This document shows positions 4,616 through 35,782 of a stretch of 64,000 nt of DNA, piece after piece; within the stretch, counting starts at the first letter, position 1, and each line of letters starts with the position of its first letter. The DNA lies in assembly GCA_945860295.1 (NCBI GenBank), contig CAMAQH010000021.1:1-64000 (forward strand), written 5' to 3'. Position numbers and translations under genes: made by a program. This stretch comes from Prosthecobacter debontii. Its GTDB lineage: Bacteria; Verrucomicrobiota; Verrucomicrobiia; Verrucomicrobiales; Verrucomicrobiaceae. The notes under the pieces were generated by a model that saw nothing but the letters and a program-made list of their open reading frames with translations, searched no databases and was not told the DNA's origin.

Positions 4616-7600
4616 GGCGCGCTAAGCAGCCTGAACTGCCAGGGGGTGGCGGAGTCGGTCGGTATGTTGAGGCGTAGTGTCTCGCGGCCACGCTCTGCAT
4701 CGGTCGCTCTGCTTTCCACGGTATAATCCAGTCCTGCGGTGAGTCCGCTCCAGGTTGTGCCATCTCGGCTACTTTGCAGAATCACAGCGCTGTCAGACAA
4801 TCCGGTGCGGCGCGTGTAGGTGAAGTGATGGGTGGTGAGTGTGCCATCCTTGTTACTAGCACCGCTGCCAGCGATCCAGACATCTGGCGTGCCATCTGCA
4901 TCGAGATCGAGTGTGGCATCAGTTGAGGCGATGCTATTTGCGCTGATAGACGTCGAACCAACGGGCACATTTTCAAACACCAGGTTGTCCATGGCATAGG
5001 CATCGATGGTGATTTGAGCCGACACGAGGTTTTGGAAAGTGGGCGGGAAGGTAAAGGTCTGGAAGGCGCCGAGTAAGAGAGCGCCACCAAAGAGTCCATC
5101 AATCGTGAAACTAGTGCTGACGGTGGAGTTGTTATGCGTCACGCCAGTGAAAGTGATGGTTCGAGGCTGTGCAAAGGCGAAGCTGTATTCACCGAGATCA
5201 ACACTATGAAGATGGAAGACGCCCGCATCTGCGCGGCGAATACTCAACGGCGTTTGTTGGCCAAGTAGTGCGATATGAGGCGTGCCGTTATTGGGGCGGT
5301 TACCCGTATTGGCTCCGACGTGAAGGATCGAACTCGGCGTGCTGAAGAGCATTCCATCCTCCTGATAGCTGGCGATTCCACCTGTCGCGCCATCTGCTGG
5401 CGCAACAACACTGAAATCCGCGTTGAACTTGGTGAGCAGCGAAACGGCCTGGAATGTGATTTGCATCACGCGGCTAAGCTGTGGTTGGCCAGACGCATTA
5501 AAGGTAAGCGTACCTGCGATATATCCACCCACAGTAGGCGCACAGGTGACGGCAATTTGTGCGGACTGGCCAGCGTTGATGCTCACCGACGAGGCCGGAC
5601 CACTTAGTGCTGGCCGCGTAGAGTTGACGGTGACATTCACATCCTGAGTGGAATAGTTGGTCACATTGAAGCTCGTAATGGCGTTGCCATTGATCAGCAC
5701 CTGACCAAAATCAAATGTGCTGGGTGATACCGCGAGAGTCCCTGGTTCGACTGTGCTGAGTGCGCGGTTCACGGCGTCATAAAGCACGAGGCGGGAGTTG
5801 CTGGCGGTAGCGGCCATGAAGCTGGTGGTGACTGGTAAGGTCGAGAGTTCCAGTGGGGTGAAAGCGATGGCATAGATCTTGGAATTGGAGAAGGCCATTT
5901 GCCCATTCCAAGATGAGGCGACGATGCTTGCATTAAGATTCGTTAGCTGGATCAAGGATGTCGTTAAGTAGGCTTTCTGATTGTAAAAGGCACGATTGCC
6001 ATCGCCAGAAATGACGAAACTGCTGCCGAGTAATCCATTCCAATACGATGCCGTGCTGTAAGTGATGCCACCAGAATCGAGTGCGTATTTGGCGATGCCT
6101 GTGACACTGGAACTCTGCTGCACAGCGGCATAGAGGAAGGTGCCGCTGCTCGGCGTGCGGGTGATGCAGCTCGGCAGAGTGATAGTCGTGCCGACGGCGC
6201 CACCCGTTACAGAATTAATCATCTGTAAAACATTCGCCGCACTCCGCGAGACGAGCCGCCCGACGGGTCCATTGTGGATGGCTACGGCCGGCGTGCTGAG
6301 ACTCCAGTTGCCGATGATCTGTCGTGACTGCTGGCGCTGCACTGCGACGACTCGTGTGCCGCCATTGGTCAGGGTGTAAATCCGGTCATCTGCGGCATGA
6401 ACGACAAAGTCGGTGGCATCCGTCGCGGTCAGCACGGCTTGTTCGACACGAGCCGTGAGGGGATCAATCCAGAGTAGCCAGCCTTCATACGGGCTAGCGA
6501 GATCACGATGCAGGGCATAGATGAATGGCAGCGTGGGATCTGCCTCAAGCTTGATGATGTTGAGAGTGCTGAGCAGACGAAAGGTGACTGGAACGGTGAC
6601 GATGTCCGCACCTGAGGTAAGGGTGATCTGCGCCAGTTGATTGCCTGCCGTGAGGCCTGTGGGATTGAAGGACACGACGACGGTGGCGGGACCAGTGCCT
6701 GCAGCCGTGTCCACGCTGAGCCATGAGGCATTGTCAGAGAGCGTCCATGGCGTAGCGCCAGCAGTAGTCGTGATATTTAACGTCGTGGTCAGTGAAGCGG
6801 TGCTACCGAGTAGCGTGGCCATCGTCAGACTAGTCGGCGTCACGGCCACAGGTGGGATGCGGAAACTCCATGCGGAGCCTTTCACCGTACTGCCATCGAG
6901 GTTGCGTGTGTCGATGCGCCAATAATACGTCTGGCCTAACTGGAAGTTGGAGCCATTGAAGGCAAAGCTGACGCCGGGGGTGTTGCCACGATAGATACCG
7001 CCAGTGCTATTCGTGGCAGTATTCAGAGCGGTGGCATCGGTGCTCAGGAAGACATCGTAGCTGGCGGATGTCGGGATACCGGTCCAGCTAAGCGCAGTGG
7101 GCGCGGCGGCTAAGCTGCTGCCATCAGCGATCAGCGGATTGATCGTGGCGGCTGGCAAATTGGGAACGGTGAGTCGGGCAAGCCGAAGCGTGCTGTTGTT
7201 CAGATAGACGAGCGCCGTTTGATCAGCGGTAAAGGCGGCTACCGTCACAGAGACGGGCAGTGTTTGTAGCGCGGTGCCATTGGCACCATCCAGTACATTA
7301 ATGCCGCTGATGAGGCTGTGACCATAGGCTGAAGCCGCCAGTATTGTTTGCCCTGTGTAGGACTGCCGTGCGGTGAGCGTGGGGTTGAAGCGTGAGCCTT
7401 TGGTGATCACGGCATCACGATTGGCACTGTAAAACACAGGAGCCTCCAGAGGATTTTGTGAGACAGCGTCGGTGCTGAGACTGGTCTGGCTCAGCGTGTC
7501 TGAGGCGCTGCTGATACGCGCTAGCACTGAGGTGTTGCTGGTTCCCCAGCCACTCTGTGCCCATGCATAGATCGTGCTGCCATCCGGAGTGACGACGAAG

Positions 7601-10600
7601 TCACCGATGCCAGCACCGGAATTCAGAACGAAACTTTGCAGCTCGAATCCGGCGTCATATTTGAAGACATGCAGCGCGGGGCTCGTCGCAGCATCGGTGT
7701 AATAGACGAGGTCTTGCCGACCTGTTTCGATGTGGTAATGATAAGGGCTTCCAGTGCCAGCATCGAGAGCGATGGGAATGCTCTTGGTGCTGACAAGCGT
7801 GAAGGTTTCGAGATCCACCTGGGTGATGGTTTTGCCTGCAAAGCTGATGGCATACAAAAGGCGACCGTCGGTGGTGAGATCGGCATCCGTGATGTCGGTG
7901 GGTAGGAGAAGAATGTTTTCAGCCAGCAGGGTCGTGGCATTGACTGCTGCGAGCACGGACGGCTCTCCACTCAGGCCTCGAATGAGGCCCAGCATACGCG
8001 ATTGGCGATAGTCGGTGAGGAGCTGGCTGAAGTTTGCTGTGCGAACGGTGAGACTCACTGGCACGGGTAGAGTGATGCCGTTGTAGTTGATGTTCACCAC
8101 TCCCTGATAAGAGCCTGCGGCAAGCTTGCTGCTGTAGGTTAGGGTAAGTGAGTCGTCACCCGCACCACTGGATTTTGAAAGCGTGATCCAGGGAACCGTC
8201 GGGCTTGCCGTCCATGCTGGGTTTGATCCTGCGCGTGTGGTGATGGTGAGCGCGCTTTGGGCGGAGCCCGAATCGGTGAGTTGTAATGCGGTGATGGCGG
8301 TGGGTGCCACATCGAGTTCTGCGGGCGTCACGTTTAGGGTGAGTGGGATGTCGGCGGTGCCAGAGACTGGCGCATTGCTGGTCACGCGAATCGTCGCGGT
8401 ATGGGTGCCGATCTGTAGCTTGCGGGAGGCGATCTGCAAATTGGGAGTGGAGTTGCCACCTGCTGCGCTACTGCCAGAAGCAGGGCTGACGCTGACTGAT
8501 GAGGCGTCAGCAGGTAGCGCCATGTTTTGCAGGAACGAGTCCATGAGACTACCCGCGAGTGTTTCAGAAACCGGCGCGCCACTTTGTCTGGCGAACAAAA
8601 GATAATACAAGCGCACGATGCCTGAGAGGCCACTGACGCTGTGGGCATCGCTGTTCGTGCTAGAGCTATAAGTGTGGGAGACGCCGGGCTTGTCCTCGAC
8701 AATGATGAGATGGTTCACCGAGGGATCAAAAGCTCCCGACACACCTTTGAAGAAGCCCTTGTAGGTGATGCCACCCACCGTTCGGGTTAGCACAGCCCCA
8801 TTGGTGATGCCATCGCCGTCTGCGCCGAGATTGCCTCGGAGGGCGAAGCTGCTGACGCCATTCATGTCTGCTACAAAAACAAAGAGACCGTTTTGCTTGC
8901 GGGTAAAATAGCTACCGCCTGTCCCCATTATAGCGCTAGTGACTATGGCGTTGTTTGAGTAGGCCAATTCGCTGCCCGAACTTATGTCTATGATGTTGCC
9001 AGTGTCATACATGTCAAAGCCACCTTCAGTGATGGAGTTACCGGTCTCACCCTCGGTGAAGGAATAGAGATTTGGAATCAGCGCGGTGAGGGTGGCATGG
9101 TGCGTATTCACGCGCTGCAACACTTCCTGGAGTGTGCCAGCGCCGGTGCTTGTATTCGTGATGGTCGCCTGCCAATTCAGAGCTGATCCGCCATCATTAC
9201 TGATCGTTAGTGGTTGAGTGCTGGTGCGGCCTTTTTCTAAACTCAAAGTGAGCGTGCTGGGCTCGACACGTAGAGTCGGCGGAGTGATACCACGTCCTGA
9301 GACAGGCAGCACAACAGGGGAAGGCAAAGCGGGGTTTGTGCTAAAGCTTAATTTGCCCGTGAAGGAGGCTGCGGAATTGGGTGAGAAACGCACCGTCACG
9401 GTCCTTGAAGCACCAGCGGCGATCGTCGTTGGCAGTGTGATGGGCACTGTATCAAATCGGCCACTATCACTCGTTATGCCGGTGAGATTCAGCGTTGCAT
9501 TACCGTCATTGCGCAGCGAGATCGACAGCGGTGACGTGCTGCCATTGAAGGTGTCTGCGAAGCTCAGCACTGCGGGTGTGATGGCGAGCCGTGGGCGCGG
9601 CACGACGGTGATCGTCACGGGCACCACGAGACTTGGGCGCGAGGGATCATTGCTGGTGAAAATGATCTGGCCTGTGGAGGTGGCCGCTGCTGTGGAGAAA
9701 GTGCTGCTGACGGTCAGTGTTAGGGCACTGCTGCCTGCCGCTGCGGTGGTGCCCGAACTGCTACTGAGGCTGGTCATGCTGGCGATGGCTCCCGTGCGGG
9801 CCGCCGTCCATTGCAGGGGTAGGCCGCCTATGTTGGAGAGCGTCAGCGTGCTGGTCAGCGGCACGCCTGGCTCCACGCTCAGCGCGAGAGCTGTCGGCAC
9901 CACCTCGATATGTGGAGCGATGGCTCCGCGCCCGCTCAGTTGTATGACTCGATCCGGCGTGCTGCGCGCGTTGCTTTTCAGAGTGAGGCTCGCATTGTGA
10001 TCACGCGCTTCAGTTGGTGAAAAGCGCACGGTTATCGGCATGTTCGCTCTAGGGTTGAGCGTAAGCGGTAGAGTGACGCCCGTCGTCGTAAAGGCAGCTT
10101 CACTGCTGATGATTTCAGTGATGATCAGCGGCAGATTGCCTGGATTGGTGATTGTGCCAGTCAGCGTGCTAGTGGCCTGTGTGTAGGTCACTGGGAAAGC
10201 ATACACGGCAGGCCAATGCCGCAACACGGCAGCCGAAGCCACGCGGAATGTGACGGGCACATCCACCTGACTGAGGCTGAGTGCATTGCTATTGAAGCGT
10301 ACCTTTGCTGTCTGCGGGCCAGCAGGAAGACCGGCCGTATCAAGCGTGGTGGTGACGACTGAGTTGCCACCCGCTGGGGTGGTGCCAGCGGCGGCGGACA
10401 GCGTGATCCAGGATGTCGGCGTGCCTGTGACATCGAGCAAAAGATTCGTCCAGGTCAGCGCTACTTGCCCGCTGTTGGTGACGGTGAGATCGCGTGTCAC
10501 ACTTTCCCCAGGCTCTAGCTCTTCATCTAAGAGGCTTGGCGTGATCGCCAACGCTGGTGGTCGCACGACCTTTGCGATCACAGGCAAGAGGACATCTGTT

Positions 10601-28446: not shown

Positions 28447-30594
28447 ATGTCCAATCCGAACTCTCCCAACCGCGAATACCCACTGGAGCGCACCCGTAAC
28501 ATCGGGATCTGCGCACACATTGACGCGGGCAAGACCACTCTGACTGAGCGTATTCTCTTCTACACAGGCATGATCCACCGGATCGGCGAAGTGCATGATG
28601 GGGCAGCTACCACAGACTGGATGGAGCAGGAAAAAGAACGCGGGATCACGATCACTTCCGCCGCCGTGACTGCACGCTGGAAGCAGATCAAGGAAGTAGG
28701 TATTTACAAGATGCGCGAAGAAGAGGACATGCGCGTCAACATCATCGACACCCCTGGGCACGTGGACTTCACGGCTGAGGTAGAGCGTTCTTTGCGTGTT
28801 CTTGATGGAGCGATCTTCGTTCTTTGTGGCGTAGCTGGTGTGCAGCCGCAGTCTGAAACTGTGTATCGCCAAGCTGAGAAGTATGGTGTGCCGCGTATCG
28901 CCTTTGTGAACAAGATGGATCGCACAGGTGCCAACTTTGAAAACGTCGTGCGTGACGTGCGTGCTAAACTTGGTGCCAATGCATGGCCAATCCTGATTCC
29001 GATTGGTGCTGAAGAACATTTGATTGGCCAGATCGACGTGGTGAATCAAAAAGCGATCATCTACAATGATGACGAAAAGTTTGGTTCCTCTTACACGGTC
29101 CGTGAACTTGAAGGTGCTGAAATCGCCACAGCGAAAGCAGCTTATGAAGGTCTCCTCGATCAAGTGTGCAGCCAGGACGAAGAACTCGGCATGCAGTTCC
29201 TCGAAGAAAAGCCAATTTCGATCCAAGAACTCAAGGCAGCACTTCGCCGCACCGTGATCTCAAACAAGATCATCCCGATGGCTGGTGGTTCTGCCTTCAA
29301 GAACAAGGGTGTTCAGTATCTGATTGATGCGGTCATCGACTATCTTCCAGGGCCTCTGGACATTGCTCCTCAGAAAGGTCACGTCGTGGACGAGCCAGAA
29401 AATCTGATCGAAGCGATTCCAAACGATAACGGCAAGTTCATCGCCCTTGGCTTCAAGCTTTGGTCTGACAAATTTGGTCGCCTCGTCTTCTTCCGCGTTT
29501 ATTCCGGCTGCGTCCGTAAGGGTGACACGATCTACAACCCTCGCACTCGTAAGTCAGAGCGTGTCGGTCGTCTAATTCAGATTCAAGCCAGCGTGCATAA
29601 GGACATCGACTGCTGTTACTCCGGTGACATCGCTGCCCTCGTCGGTGTTAAGGACGTTCGCACAGGCGACACCTTCTGCGATGAAAGTCTTGAAGTGCTC
29701 CTTGAGCCCCCAACCTTCCCTGAGCCCGTGATCTCCATGGCTGTTGAGCCAAAGACCAAGGCTGACCAAGAGAAGATGGGCAATGCACTCCAGCGCTTGT
29801 CGGAAGAAGATCCAACCTTCTTCGTCAAAACGGATGAAGAAACGGGCCAGACAATCATCGCTGGCATGGGTGAGCTTCATCTTGAAATTCTCTGCGACCG
29901 TCTCAAGCGCGAGCACAAAGTCGAAACCAACACTGGCAAGCCGCAGATCGCCTACCGCGAGACTCTCACGAGAGAAGCCGATGGCGAAGGCAAGTTGGTC
30001 AAGCAGTCTGGTGGTCGTGGTCAGTATGGACACGTAATCCTCAAGATTTTCCCAGGTGAACCTGGCAAAGGCGTCTCGGTCGAAAACAAAGTTGTCGGTG
30101 GTACCATCCCGAAAGAATTCATCAATCCCTGCAAGGCAGGTTGTATGGAAGCGGTGCTCAACGGCATCATCGCAGGTTATCCTGTGATCGACGTTCGTAT
30201 TGAGCTCTTGGATGGTTCAAGCCATGACGTTGACTCGAATGAAAACGCTTTCAAGATGGCCGCCATCTTCGCAGTCAAAGACGCGCTGAAGAAAGCCAAG
30301 TGCATTTTGCTCGAGCCAATCATGGCTGTGGAAGCCTCCACACCAGAAGATTATCAGGGAGACATCATGGGTGACCTTAACCGTCGCCGTGGTAAAATCC
30401 AAGGGATGGACACACGTGGAACCACTGCGATCCTTCGCGCTGAAGTTCCGCTGTCGGAAATGTTTGGTTATTCGACCGCGATCCGCACCCTTTCCTCTGG
30501 CCGCGCCTCCTACTCCATGCAGCCTGCGCGCTTTGAGCAGGTCCCACAGCAGATCGTCGAGCAGATCGTCGAGCAGCGCGGAACAAAGAACTAA
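28447..30594 (+). CDS. fusA: Elongation factor G
   Basis: The 715-residue translational GTPase drives tRNA-mRNA translocation and ribosome recycling. G1 [15 protein letters not shown] is near residue 22, the switch-I EKERGITI follows, G3 is IDTPGHVDF and G4 is [12 protein letters not shown]. Domain IV ([13 protein letters not shown]) and domain V ([20 protein letters not shown]) are complete. It follows rpsG directly. The tuf gene that usually comes next is absent; rpsJ follows 35 bp downstream. Confidence 0.98.
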
Positions 30595-30629
30595 ATTTTG
30601 CAGTAACCCATTTGAACCGGAACCCCGAC

Positions 30630-30938
30630 ATGAGTAATCAACGAATCAGAATCCGCCTGCGCGCCTATGACTACCGCGTGCTTGATAAGAGCACGGCAGA
30701 CATCGTGGAAACCGCCAAGCGGACAGGTGCAAAAGTAGCAGGGCCGATCCCGCTCCCGACCCGCATTGAAAAGTTTACGGTGAACCGCTCACCACACGTG
30801 GATAAGAAGTCCATGGACCAGTTCGAAATCCGCACGCACAAGCGTTTGTTGGACATCGTTGACCCCACATCCCGCACGGTGGATGAGCTGAAGAAGCTCA
30901 ATCTCCCATCTGGCGTGGACATCACGATCAAGATCTAG
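30630..30938 (+). CDS. rpsJ: 30S ribosomal protein S10
   Basis: The 102-residue protein starts [20 protein letters not shown] and has the [20 protein letters not shown] loop and the [12 protein letters not shown] strand. S10 sits in the 30S head and also acts with NusB/NusG in antitermination. An in-frame TTG at 30612 is rejected in favour of the ATG at 30630, which matches the conserved N-terminus. It is the first gene of the S10 part of the cluster. Confidence 0.97.
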
Positions 30939-33463: not shown

Positions 33464-33742
33464 ATGGCACGCTCACTGAAAAAAGGACCCTTCGTCCAGC
33501 AGGCACTGCTCGACAAAGTGGACAAGCTCAACGACGCCGGACTAAAGCGCCCGGTAAAGACATGGGCACGTAGTTCCATGATCACTCCCGATCTTGTCGG
33601 TCACACTTTCTTGGTTCACAACGGTAAGGATTTCGTGAGCGTCTACGCCACGGAAAACATGGTTGGACATCGCCTCGGCGAGTTTTCCCAGACACGTCTC
33701 TTCAAGAGCCACGGTGCCCACACTGTCAAAGCTGCTAAGTAA
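33464..33742 (+). CDS. rpsS: 30S ribosomal protein S19
   Basis: The 92-residue S19 starts [18 protein letters not shown] and has [18 protein letters not shown] and [19 protein letters not shown], all canonical. It binds the 30S head near the A-site finger. In nearly all bacteria rplV follows directly; here an exported coiled-coil protein gene is inserted, starting 34 bp downstream. Confidence 0.98.
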
Positions 33743-33775
33743 GTTATTTTCGACTATTTTTTGTCCTACAATTCA

Positions 33776-34570
33776 ATGATCACAAGCCTGTCCCAACGTT
33801 TCAACTCATGCGCTCTGCTGCTTTTCGCAGTGGTGATCGTGTGTGGTGACGTTCAGGCGCAGACCTCATTTGAGTTGCAGGAATTAAACACGACTCTGCA
33901 GGTGGCTGCGCAGAAGATTCAAGCATACGAGGAGCAACTCGCTGCATCTAAAGACAAGAACGCTGCGCTCACGCAGAGTGCAGCGGCTTCTAATAATGAA
34001 GCGCTCGAACTCAAGGATCGCTACGAGCGCCTTCGCGGTTTGCTTGAAGGTCTGGGCATTACCGCTCTGGAGAATGCCCCAGAACAAACGCAAGCGCGTC
34101 TGCTTTCTTCTCTTAGTGATCTGCGTATTGCAGAAACATCCCGCCTGAATCTTGCGGATAGTTTGATGGAACTCGCTGAAGCTTCTCTGCAGTTTGTCAA
34201 AACTGTTCCAACTCCTGAGCCAACGTCAGCTGATCGTCTTCAACTAGCGCTCGTCAAAGCTGAAGAGACCCTAGCCAAATCATCTTCTAAGATTGTTGAT
34301 CCAACTCAGCCCGCCGCTGATCTGCAAGATGCACGTATTGTCAGTTTGAAGAGTGAACTCGGCATTGCCGTCCTCAGTGTGGGTTCCCGTGATGGCGTGA
34401 AGCCAGGGATGCCCTTTGAAATTTTCCGCGAAGACAAACCCATCGCGAAGGTTCTTGTCACCGAAGTACGCAACTCTGTGAGTGGCGCTGTGGTGCAGGA
34501 ACTAGCAAACGTCTCTGATCCTGTCCGGGTCGGAGATAAAGGCAAAATCGATACAAACAGGTCATTCTAA
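33776..34570 (+). CDS. Exported coiled-coil protein inserted in the S10 operon
   Basis: This 264-residue protein is not a ribosomal protein. From the ATG at 33776 it has a signal peptide (RFNSCALLLFAVVIVCG, cleavage likely after VQA). A long heptad-rich coiled coil follows at about 27-95 (LQELNTTLQVAAQKIQAYEE, NNEALELKDRYERLRGL), with a second helical stretch at about 100-180. The C-terminal beta domain of about 65 residues contains VLSVGSRDGVKPGMPFEIF and PVRVGDKGKI. That pattern recalls the small beta domain found at the end of some periplasmic assembly proteins (FlgT-like) and is otherwise unassigned. It starts 34 bp after rpsS, and rplV begins four bases after its stop, so it is co-transcribed and coupled. 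No Shine-Dalgarno sequence is seen. A role at the cell envelope is inferred only from the signal peptide. Confidence 0.85.
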   Translation: MITSLSQRFNSCALLLFAVVIVCGDVQAQTSFELQELNTTLQVAAQKIQAYEEQLAASKDKNAALTQSAAASNNEALELKDRYERLRGLLEGLGITALENAPEQTQARLLSSLSDLRIAETSRLNLADSLMELAEASLQFVKTVPTPEPTSADRLQLALVKAEETLAKSSSKIVDPTQPAADLQDARIVSLKSELGIAVLSVGSRDGVKPGMPFEIFREDKPIAKVLVTEVRNSVSGAVVQELANVSDPVRVGDKGKIDTNRSF

Positions 34571-34574
34571 GTTT

Positions 34575-34970
34575 ATGGAAGTTCGTTCAATCCTTAAATA
34601 CGCTCGCATCTCTTCCCAGAAGGCGCGTCAAGTCACACGTGCTATCACTGGAATGCCAGTGTCACAGGCGCTCAGTGTGCTTGATTTCACCCCCAAGAAG
34701 GCAGCTCTTCTCGTCGGCAAAGTTCTCCGTTCCGCTGTGGCGAACGCAGAAAATAACCACGAACTCGATGCCGACGACCTGATCGTCGCCAGCGCAGTCG
34801 CTACTCCAGGGCCAACTCTCAAGCGCATTATGCCCCGCGCTCGTGGCTCAGCTGCACCGATTCTCAAGCGCATGACTCACATCACTGTGATTCTCGGTGC
34901 TAAGCCTGAAGAGGCTGCGAAGCCAGCGAAACGCATCAATAAGTCTCAGGCGAAAGTCTCGGCTGAATAA
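34575..34970 (+). CDS. rplV: 50S ribosomal protein L22
   Basis: The 131-residue L22 contains KYARISSQKARQVTRAI, the KVLRSAVANAENNH helix and the exit-tunnel hairpin with PTLKRIMPRARGSAAPI, KRMTHITVIL. A C-terminal extension of about 20 residues rich in Lys and Ala follows. It starts four bases after the stop of the inserted coiled-coil gene and precedes rpsC in the usual order. Confidence 0.97.
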   Translation: MEVRSILKYARISSQKARQVTRAITGMPVSQALSVLDFTPKKAALLVGKVLRSAVANAENNHELDADDLIVASAVATPGPTLKRIMPRARGSAAPILKRMTHITVILGAKPEEAAKPAKRINKSQAKVSAE

Positions 34971-34990: not shown

Positions 34991-35782
34991 ATGGGACAGA
35001 AAGTTAATCCGATCGGCTTCCGCCTTGCAGTCTCCAAAGACTGGCGCTCCAAATGGTATGCACCTGAGAGGGAGTATGCAGAAGCTCTGCATAGCGACCT
35101 CACAATTCGCAACTACCTGAAGGAAAAGCTCATGCAAGCTGCCGTGGCGAAGATCGTCATTGAGCGCGCTTGGAACCAAGTGCGTGTGACGCTTCATACG
35201 GCTCGCCCTGGTCTGGTCATTGGCCGTAAAGGTCAAGAGATCGAAGTGATGAGCCAGAAAGTCTCCGAAATGTGTGGTGGCAAACAGGTCAAGATCGACA
35301 TCTTCGAGATCAAGCAGCCTGAACTTGACGCCCAGCTCGTCGCAGAAGGCGTCGCCGTTCAGCTTGAGCGCCGTATTTCCTTCCGCCGTGCGATGAAACG
35401 TTCCGTGCAGACCGCGATGGACATGGGTGGCGAAGGTATTCGTATCCGAGTTGCCGGTCGTCTTGGTGGTGCGGATATCGCCCGTGCTGAGCAGTATCGT
35501 CAAGGCAAAGTGCCTCTCCAGACACTGCGTATCCCGATTGACTACGGCTTTGCTGAAGCCCGCACCGTTTATGGACTGATTGGTGTTAAAGTTTGGCTCA
35601 ATCGCGGTAACGCACCTGAGAACAGCCAGCCTCGTCAAGAGCGTCGCCCTCGCCGTGATGGTGATCGTGGTGGACCACCTCGTCGTGGTGAGCGTGCTGG
35701 CGGCGGACCTCCTCAATACGGTTCCGTTCCCACCTCTGGTCCCGCACCAGCTACCGCCGCTGAAGCACCTGCTGCTCAGTAA
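34991..35782 (+). CDS. rpsC: 30S ribosomal protein S3 with extended C-terminus
   Basis: The 263-residue S3 starts MGQKVNPIGFRLAVSKDW and has the KH domain (VRVTLHTARPGLVIGRKGQE) and the C-terminal domain (RRISFRRAMKRSVQTAM, DYGFAEARTVYGLIGVKVW). S3 forms part of the mRNA entry helicase. About 60 residues beyond the conserved end are disordered and rich in Arg, Gly, Pro and Ala (RQERRPRRDGDRGGPPRRGE), longer than in most bacteria. Confidence 0.97.
   Translation: MGQKVNPIGFRLAVSKDWRSKWYAPEREYAEALHSDLTIRNYLKEKLMQAAVAKIVIERAWNQVRVTLHTARPGLVIGRKGQEIEVMSQKVSEMCGGKQVKIDIFEIKQPELDAQLVAEGVAVQLERRISFRRAMKRSVQTAMDMGGEGIRIRVAGRLGGADIARAEQYRQGKVPLQTLRIPIDYGFAEARTVYGLIGVKVWLNRGNAPENSQPRQERRPRRDGDRGGPPRRGERAGGGPPQYGSVPTSGPAPATAAEAPAAQ

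Follow-up and report, generated by a model that had tools for sequence, protein, structure and literature searches.

A predicted exported protein is encoded within the S10 operon

The window, a stretch of 64,000 nucleotides from Prosthecobacter debontii, contains an S10 operon that is ordinary except at one junction. Between rpsS (uS19; 33464..33742, plus strand) and rplV (uL22; 34575..34970, plus strand) lies an open reading frame of 264 codons, at 33776..34570 on the plus strand, which opens with an ATG 33 nt after rpsS and is separated by 4 nt from rplV. The next gene of the operon, rpsC (uS3), follows at 34991..35782 on the same strand. To our knowledge the junction of rpsS and rplV is nearly invariant across other bacteria. 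The preliminary description of this DNA had placed a 264-residue protein here, with rplV starting 4 nt past its stop, and both its coordinates and this spacing were confirmed, the stop codon ending at 34570. Initiation at a TTG at 33761 instead would lengthen the protein by five residues; homologues favour the ATG. Two other features of the ribosomal region were observed in the window: rpsJ directly follows fusA with no tuf between them (28447-30938), and the interval between rpsE and rplO lacks rpmD, the gene for L30 (39544-40546).

The amino terminus of the protein is predicted to be a signal peptide (residues 1-28; 33776..33859, plus strand), with a hydrophobic core and, read by eye from the sequence, a signal-peptidase-I-like site between VQA and QT. 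A signal peptide had been proposed previously, and the prediction extends to the homologues, as 79 of 93 locus copies have a hydrophobic N-terminus (the window is counted twice in this total) and the lineage of L066 carries a lipobox-like variant at this position. We infer from these features that the protein is exported to the periplasm. Ribosomal proteins are cytosolic and usually basic. The protein encoded here is acidic, with a pI of 4.9, and together with its hydrophobic, export-like N-terminus this led us to reject a ribosomal protein identity.

Residues 29-170 (33860..34285, plus strand) form a predicted helical coiled-coil region, which is variable, and residues 181-260 (34316..34555, plus strand) a predicted C-terminal six-stranded barrel, the conserved core of the family. 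An AlphaFold2 model calculated from 38 sequences places helices at residues 12-92, 102-143 and 149-170 and the barrel at 186-258, in agreement with the long coiled coil and small C-terminal beta domain described earlier. Modelled alone, the barrel reached a pLDDT of 92.7 and a pTM of 0.83. The coiled coil is missing in family f7, two f9 genomes and one f69 genome. In the six sampled genomes of this kind the protein is 111-124 residues long and consists of a hydrophobic N-terminus and the barrel. The coiled coil has been lost more than once, and the constant part of the protein is the C-terminal barrel of about 75 residues.

No Pfam or NCBIfam family recognised the protein above the cut-off. 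The best fold matches in the PDB were to the C-terminal domain of FlgT (8z5n, Z 11.4 over 77 residues at 2.2 Å; 3w1e, Z 11.0 over 79 residues at 2.7 Å), and the N-terminal barrels of the F1-ATPase came next with Z of about 10. Foldseek searches with the barrel returned FlgT (E 3.3e-4) and MreC (2j5u, E 1.7e-3). FlgT scores just about one Z unit above the F1-ATPase entries, a margin at which kinship with FlgT is suggested but not proved. Because barrels of this small type are widespread, no function can be read from the fold.

The gene is conserved at one site through most of Verrucomicrobiota

A search of related genomes, proposed in the preliminary description as a check on chance insertion, recovered the protein in 35 of 37 relatives, including all 29 with completeness of 90% or more and contamination of 5% or less. 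The open reading frame lies between rpsS and rplV in all 58 of the closest loci (L002-L059), which range from genus to class level. The arrangement is shared by 59 loci of named genomes, three of them truncated by contig ends; Prosthecobacter, Brevifollis gellanilyticus, a Verrucomicrobium sp., Chthoniobacter flavus Ellin428 and a Terrimicrobiaceae MAG are among these. Deeper in the phylum, a homologue sits directly upstream of rplV in 34 of 40 regions.

We also compared the positions of rpsS and rplV across the class, where 88 genomes were usable. The gap between the two genes was 400-1000 nt in 56 genomes, which keep the gene, and 46-355 nt in 31, where the junction is without it; one genome was unclear. 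The same C-terminal domain is encoded in 22 of the 23 class inserts that were fetched (L100-L121 and L129). The exception, L117, belongs to genome G290 (also L241), in which the gap is given as 603 or 556 nt and no recognisable barrel domain was found in the gap or the genome; G290 was scored as lacking the gene.

Over the whole gene dN/dS was about 0.04-0.18 in the pairs tested, although several dS values are near saturation and the ratios are rough. In the window comparisons dN was lowest in the barrel and constraint loosest in the signal peptide. Chance insertion was rejected on the strength of these ratios and of the recurrence of the gene at the same site throughout the phylum. Codon conservation in the barrel is equal to that of ribosomal-protein genes; in the coil it is lower. 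The rise in codon conservation at codons 201-240 was considered as a possible hidden overlapping element, but after correction for amino-acid sequence the barrel merely matches ribosomal-protein genes, and no extra element is therefore claimed.

The open reading frame between rpsS and rplV is an old orthologous gene whose site is fixed in most of Verrucomicrobiota sensu lato. The earlier suggestion of a lineage-specific envelope component is supported in this form: a gene for a predicted exported protein, under purifying selection, at a constant position through most of the phylum. The junction it occupies is among the steadiest in bacterial genomes, and the retention of such a gene there is unexpected. 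No carriage of the gene was found on viral contigs. A search of open-licence papers returned no description of an exported protein encoded between rpsS and rplV. Key-term searches of two papers on PVC signature proteins (PMC2474590, PMC3444138) gave no hit for L22, S19 or rplV, and the signature proteins given there differ; a further paper (PMC5069762) has no bearing on the gene.

The barrel defines a wider family

A profile of the barrel finds four copies in most relatives: the S10-linked gene, an adjacent pair, and a form with a transmembrane (TM) segment and linker. In the P. debontii genome the pair, each with a TM segment, a coiled coil and the same barrel, lies at 6057-7999 on the minus strand of locus L219 (G000:C14:57000-71000), and is conserved in L221, L222 and L223. 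The third paralogue, with a TM segment, a proline-rich linker and the barrel, is found at about 7000-7210 on the plus strand of L220 (G000:C5:21000-35000), between a menF-like gene and tlyA, and a paralogue of this third type lies at 1144-1833 on the plus strand of L097. Most genomes without the S10-linked gene still have a paralogue with TM segment, coiled coil and barrel.

The paralogues share with the S10-linked gene the barrel and a TM segment with a coiled coil or linker. Unlike it, they lie outside the ribosomal operon, their TM segment appears by eye to be uncleaved, and they form a pure clade (27 of 27, support 0.96), although the domain is short and the deep branching order weak. The S10-linked gene belongs to a wider, and apparently undescribed, family of predicted envelope proteins. 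Even if its dosage had no role, the gene would define an unnamed envelope protein family and provide a marker gene for the phylum.

Losses, operon breaks and a relocation

On a midpoint-rooted tree of concatenated ribosomal proteins from 100 loci, in which families are unevenly sampled, the presence and absence of the gene requires 6 changes, compared with a mean of 23 when labels were shuffled. The gene is reconstructed as present at the root, and all six changes are losses. It apparently dates from the ancestor of Verrucomicrobiota and was lost or moved only a few times. Two of the losses fall in 0.9-Mb genomes of a single clade (G069 and G090; loci L123 and L124). The spacer between rpsS and rplV at these two loci is 152-317 nt long and has no recognisable open reading frame, as would be left by recent gene decay in a reduced genome.

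In a clade of 11 genomes (support 1.0), and in one other genome, the S10 operon is split between rpsS and rplV and the gene remains beside rplV; in G154, for example, rpsS is about 567 kb away and the gene adjoins rplV. At the breaks seen in a deep clade of the phylum, at L079, L083, L086, L087 and related loci and at L073, the gene is the first of the rplV half. A different outcome was observed in genus g64 of family f20, where rplV and the sole copy of the domain lie on separate contigs in each of the six genomes in which both could be located. In the tree these copies group with the S10-linked genes and not with the paralogues. The six losses and the single relocation show that location at the ribosomal site is dispensable. 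The lineages in which the gene was lost, shortened or moved offer natural comparisons.

Linkage to ribosomal gene expression

The S10-linked copies lie on the same strand as their neighbours, with median gaps of 32 and 21 nt. No terminators were found on the coding strand. One promoter-like and three terminator-like sites were detected internally; they all fall on the minus strand, at about the number expected from shuffled sequence, and an internal promoter or terminator was rejected; Rfam gave no match within the window. Co-transcription with the ribosomal genes is likely from the spacing and strand. The preliminary description had further proposed that translation is coupled to that of rplV. 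The 4-nt spacing in the window fits this proposal, but it is not conserved, as between 0 and 124 nt separate the gene from rplV in different copies.

The same variable spacing bears on a SecM-type role, in which the protein would be a secretion-monitoring leader that regulates rplV translation according to its own export. A predicted exported protein encoded 4 nt upstream of the uL22 gene in the window would suit such a leader. However, no conserved C-terminal arrest motif was found, the C-termini differ between lineages, and the protein has a folded domain under selection with paralogues elsewhere, which makes this reading highly improbable. The operon position and the predicted exported, helical protein are also consistent with a periplasmic role at the Sec translocon, where the protein, dosed with ribosomes, would act as a holdase or spacer for proteins that have just been exported. 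E. coli provides a precedent in PpiD-YfgM, a periplasmic unit that is anchored by its N terminus and binds SecYEG (PMC9643414). Against this, neither sequence nor fold searches linked the protein to PpiD, YfgM or Skp, and we give such a role only a slim chance.

Coordination of the envelope with ribosome output, as also proposed previously, receives positional support from the shared strand, the short gaps, the lack of a detected coding-strand terminator and the persistence of the gene beside rplV after the operon has split; the spacing, the roughly six losses and the relocation in g64 do not favour it. Given these, linkage to the ribosomal site would be at most helpful. A stronger version, in which a device that arose in the verrucomicrobial ancestor ties the level of an envelope scaffold to ribosome synthesis throughout the phylum, by co-transcription and by translation coupled to rplV, is in our view unlikely.

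A serious competing explanation is that an ordinary envelope gene became part of a strong operon ahead of the phylum's diversification and has remained because disruption of the operon carries a cost, with no functional tie to ribosome synthesis. The six independent losses, the variable distance to rplV and the g64 copies, which moved to another contig and yet persist there as the genome's single copy of the domain, speak for such a passenger. Retention of one site over the phylum, and of the place beside rplV throughout a clade in which the operon is broken just upstream, argues in the other direction. We regard this explanation as quite possible, though it is not the one we favour.

A possible envelope scaffold

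The reading that we favour, at a probability of roughly 45%, is that the protein is a periplasmic coiled-coil scaffold resembling an MreC with one barrel, which organises part of the envelope, and whose amount follows ribosome production, and hence growth rate, by virtue of the gene's position in the S10 operon. The gene, its orthology, site, purifying selection, predicted barrel fold and paralogues were computed here, and prediction and comparison give good support to the envelope and family parts of the reading. The signal peptide would direct an acidic protein to the periplasm, the helical coiled coil may make it an oligomer or spacer, and the six-stranded barrel, of the type seen in FlgT-C, MreC and F1, may offer a contact surface. 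By analogy with MreC the whole could serve as a scaffold in the cell envelope, and its place in the S10 operon would make its dose proportional to ribosome production. We favour a periplasmic one-barrel scaffold because a coiled coil followed by a barrel is the plan of MreC, itself a periplasmic scaffold with a coiled coil and six-stranded barrels (PMC8804602). The dispensability of the coiled coil in f7, some f9 genomes and one f69 genome speaks against a scaffold. If dosage does matter, the gene would give a direct genetic handle on how envelope growth is matched to ribosome production.

Comparison with known systems

The apparent likeness to MreC lies in the predicted anchor or export signal, the coiled coil and the six-stranded barrel, and raises the question of whether the protein is a true member of the elongasome, working with MreC in cell-wall elongation. 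The order of parts is the same, the Foldseek match noted above is to Listeria MreC, and a weak match to an NCBIfam MreC model was obtained (E 0.0023). In contrast, the window protein has one barrel where MreC (PF04085) has two, is not encoded beside mreB or mreD, and gave no match to PF04085 at E <= 10. A comparison of the barrel profile with the genome's own MreC was not significant (hhalign probability 1%), on which MreC homology by sequence was rejected. That true MreC is encoded elsewhere in the same genome (G000:C40), and in genus f2-g2, which keeps the S10-linked gene, MreC is absent from both genomes searched; the gene is therefore not simply an MreC partner. We consider membership of the elongasome improbable.

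The C-terminal domain of FlgT (PF16538) is the best fold match, at Z 11.0-11.8, and 2 of 22 members of the family show a weak sequence match to it. The N-terminal and middle domains of FlgT are missing, and a helical coiled coil lies upstream instead. FlgH (PF02107) was found in 0 of 35 relatives (3 of 14 in the control rings), so the gene is not flagellar. The N-terminal barrel of the F1-ATPase alpha and beta subunits is the same small barrel, but belongs to a cytosolic catalytic complex, and we take the two to share the fold only. The closest parallel in gene arrangement is secY, likewise an envelope-related gene inside a ribosomal-protein operon, in this case the spc operon. SecY, a translocon component, occurs universally, whereas the S10-linked gene is known here from Verrucomicrobiota, the phylum searched, alone.
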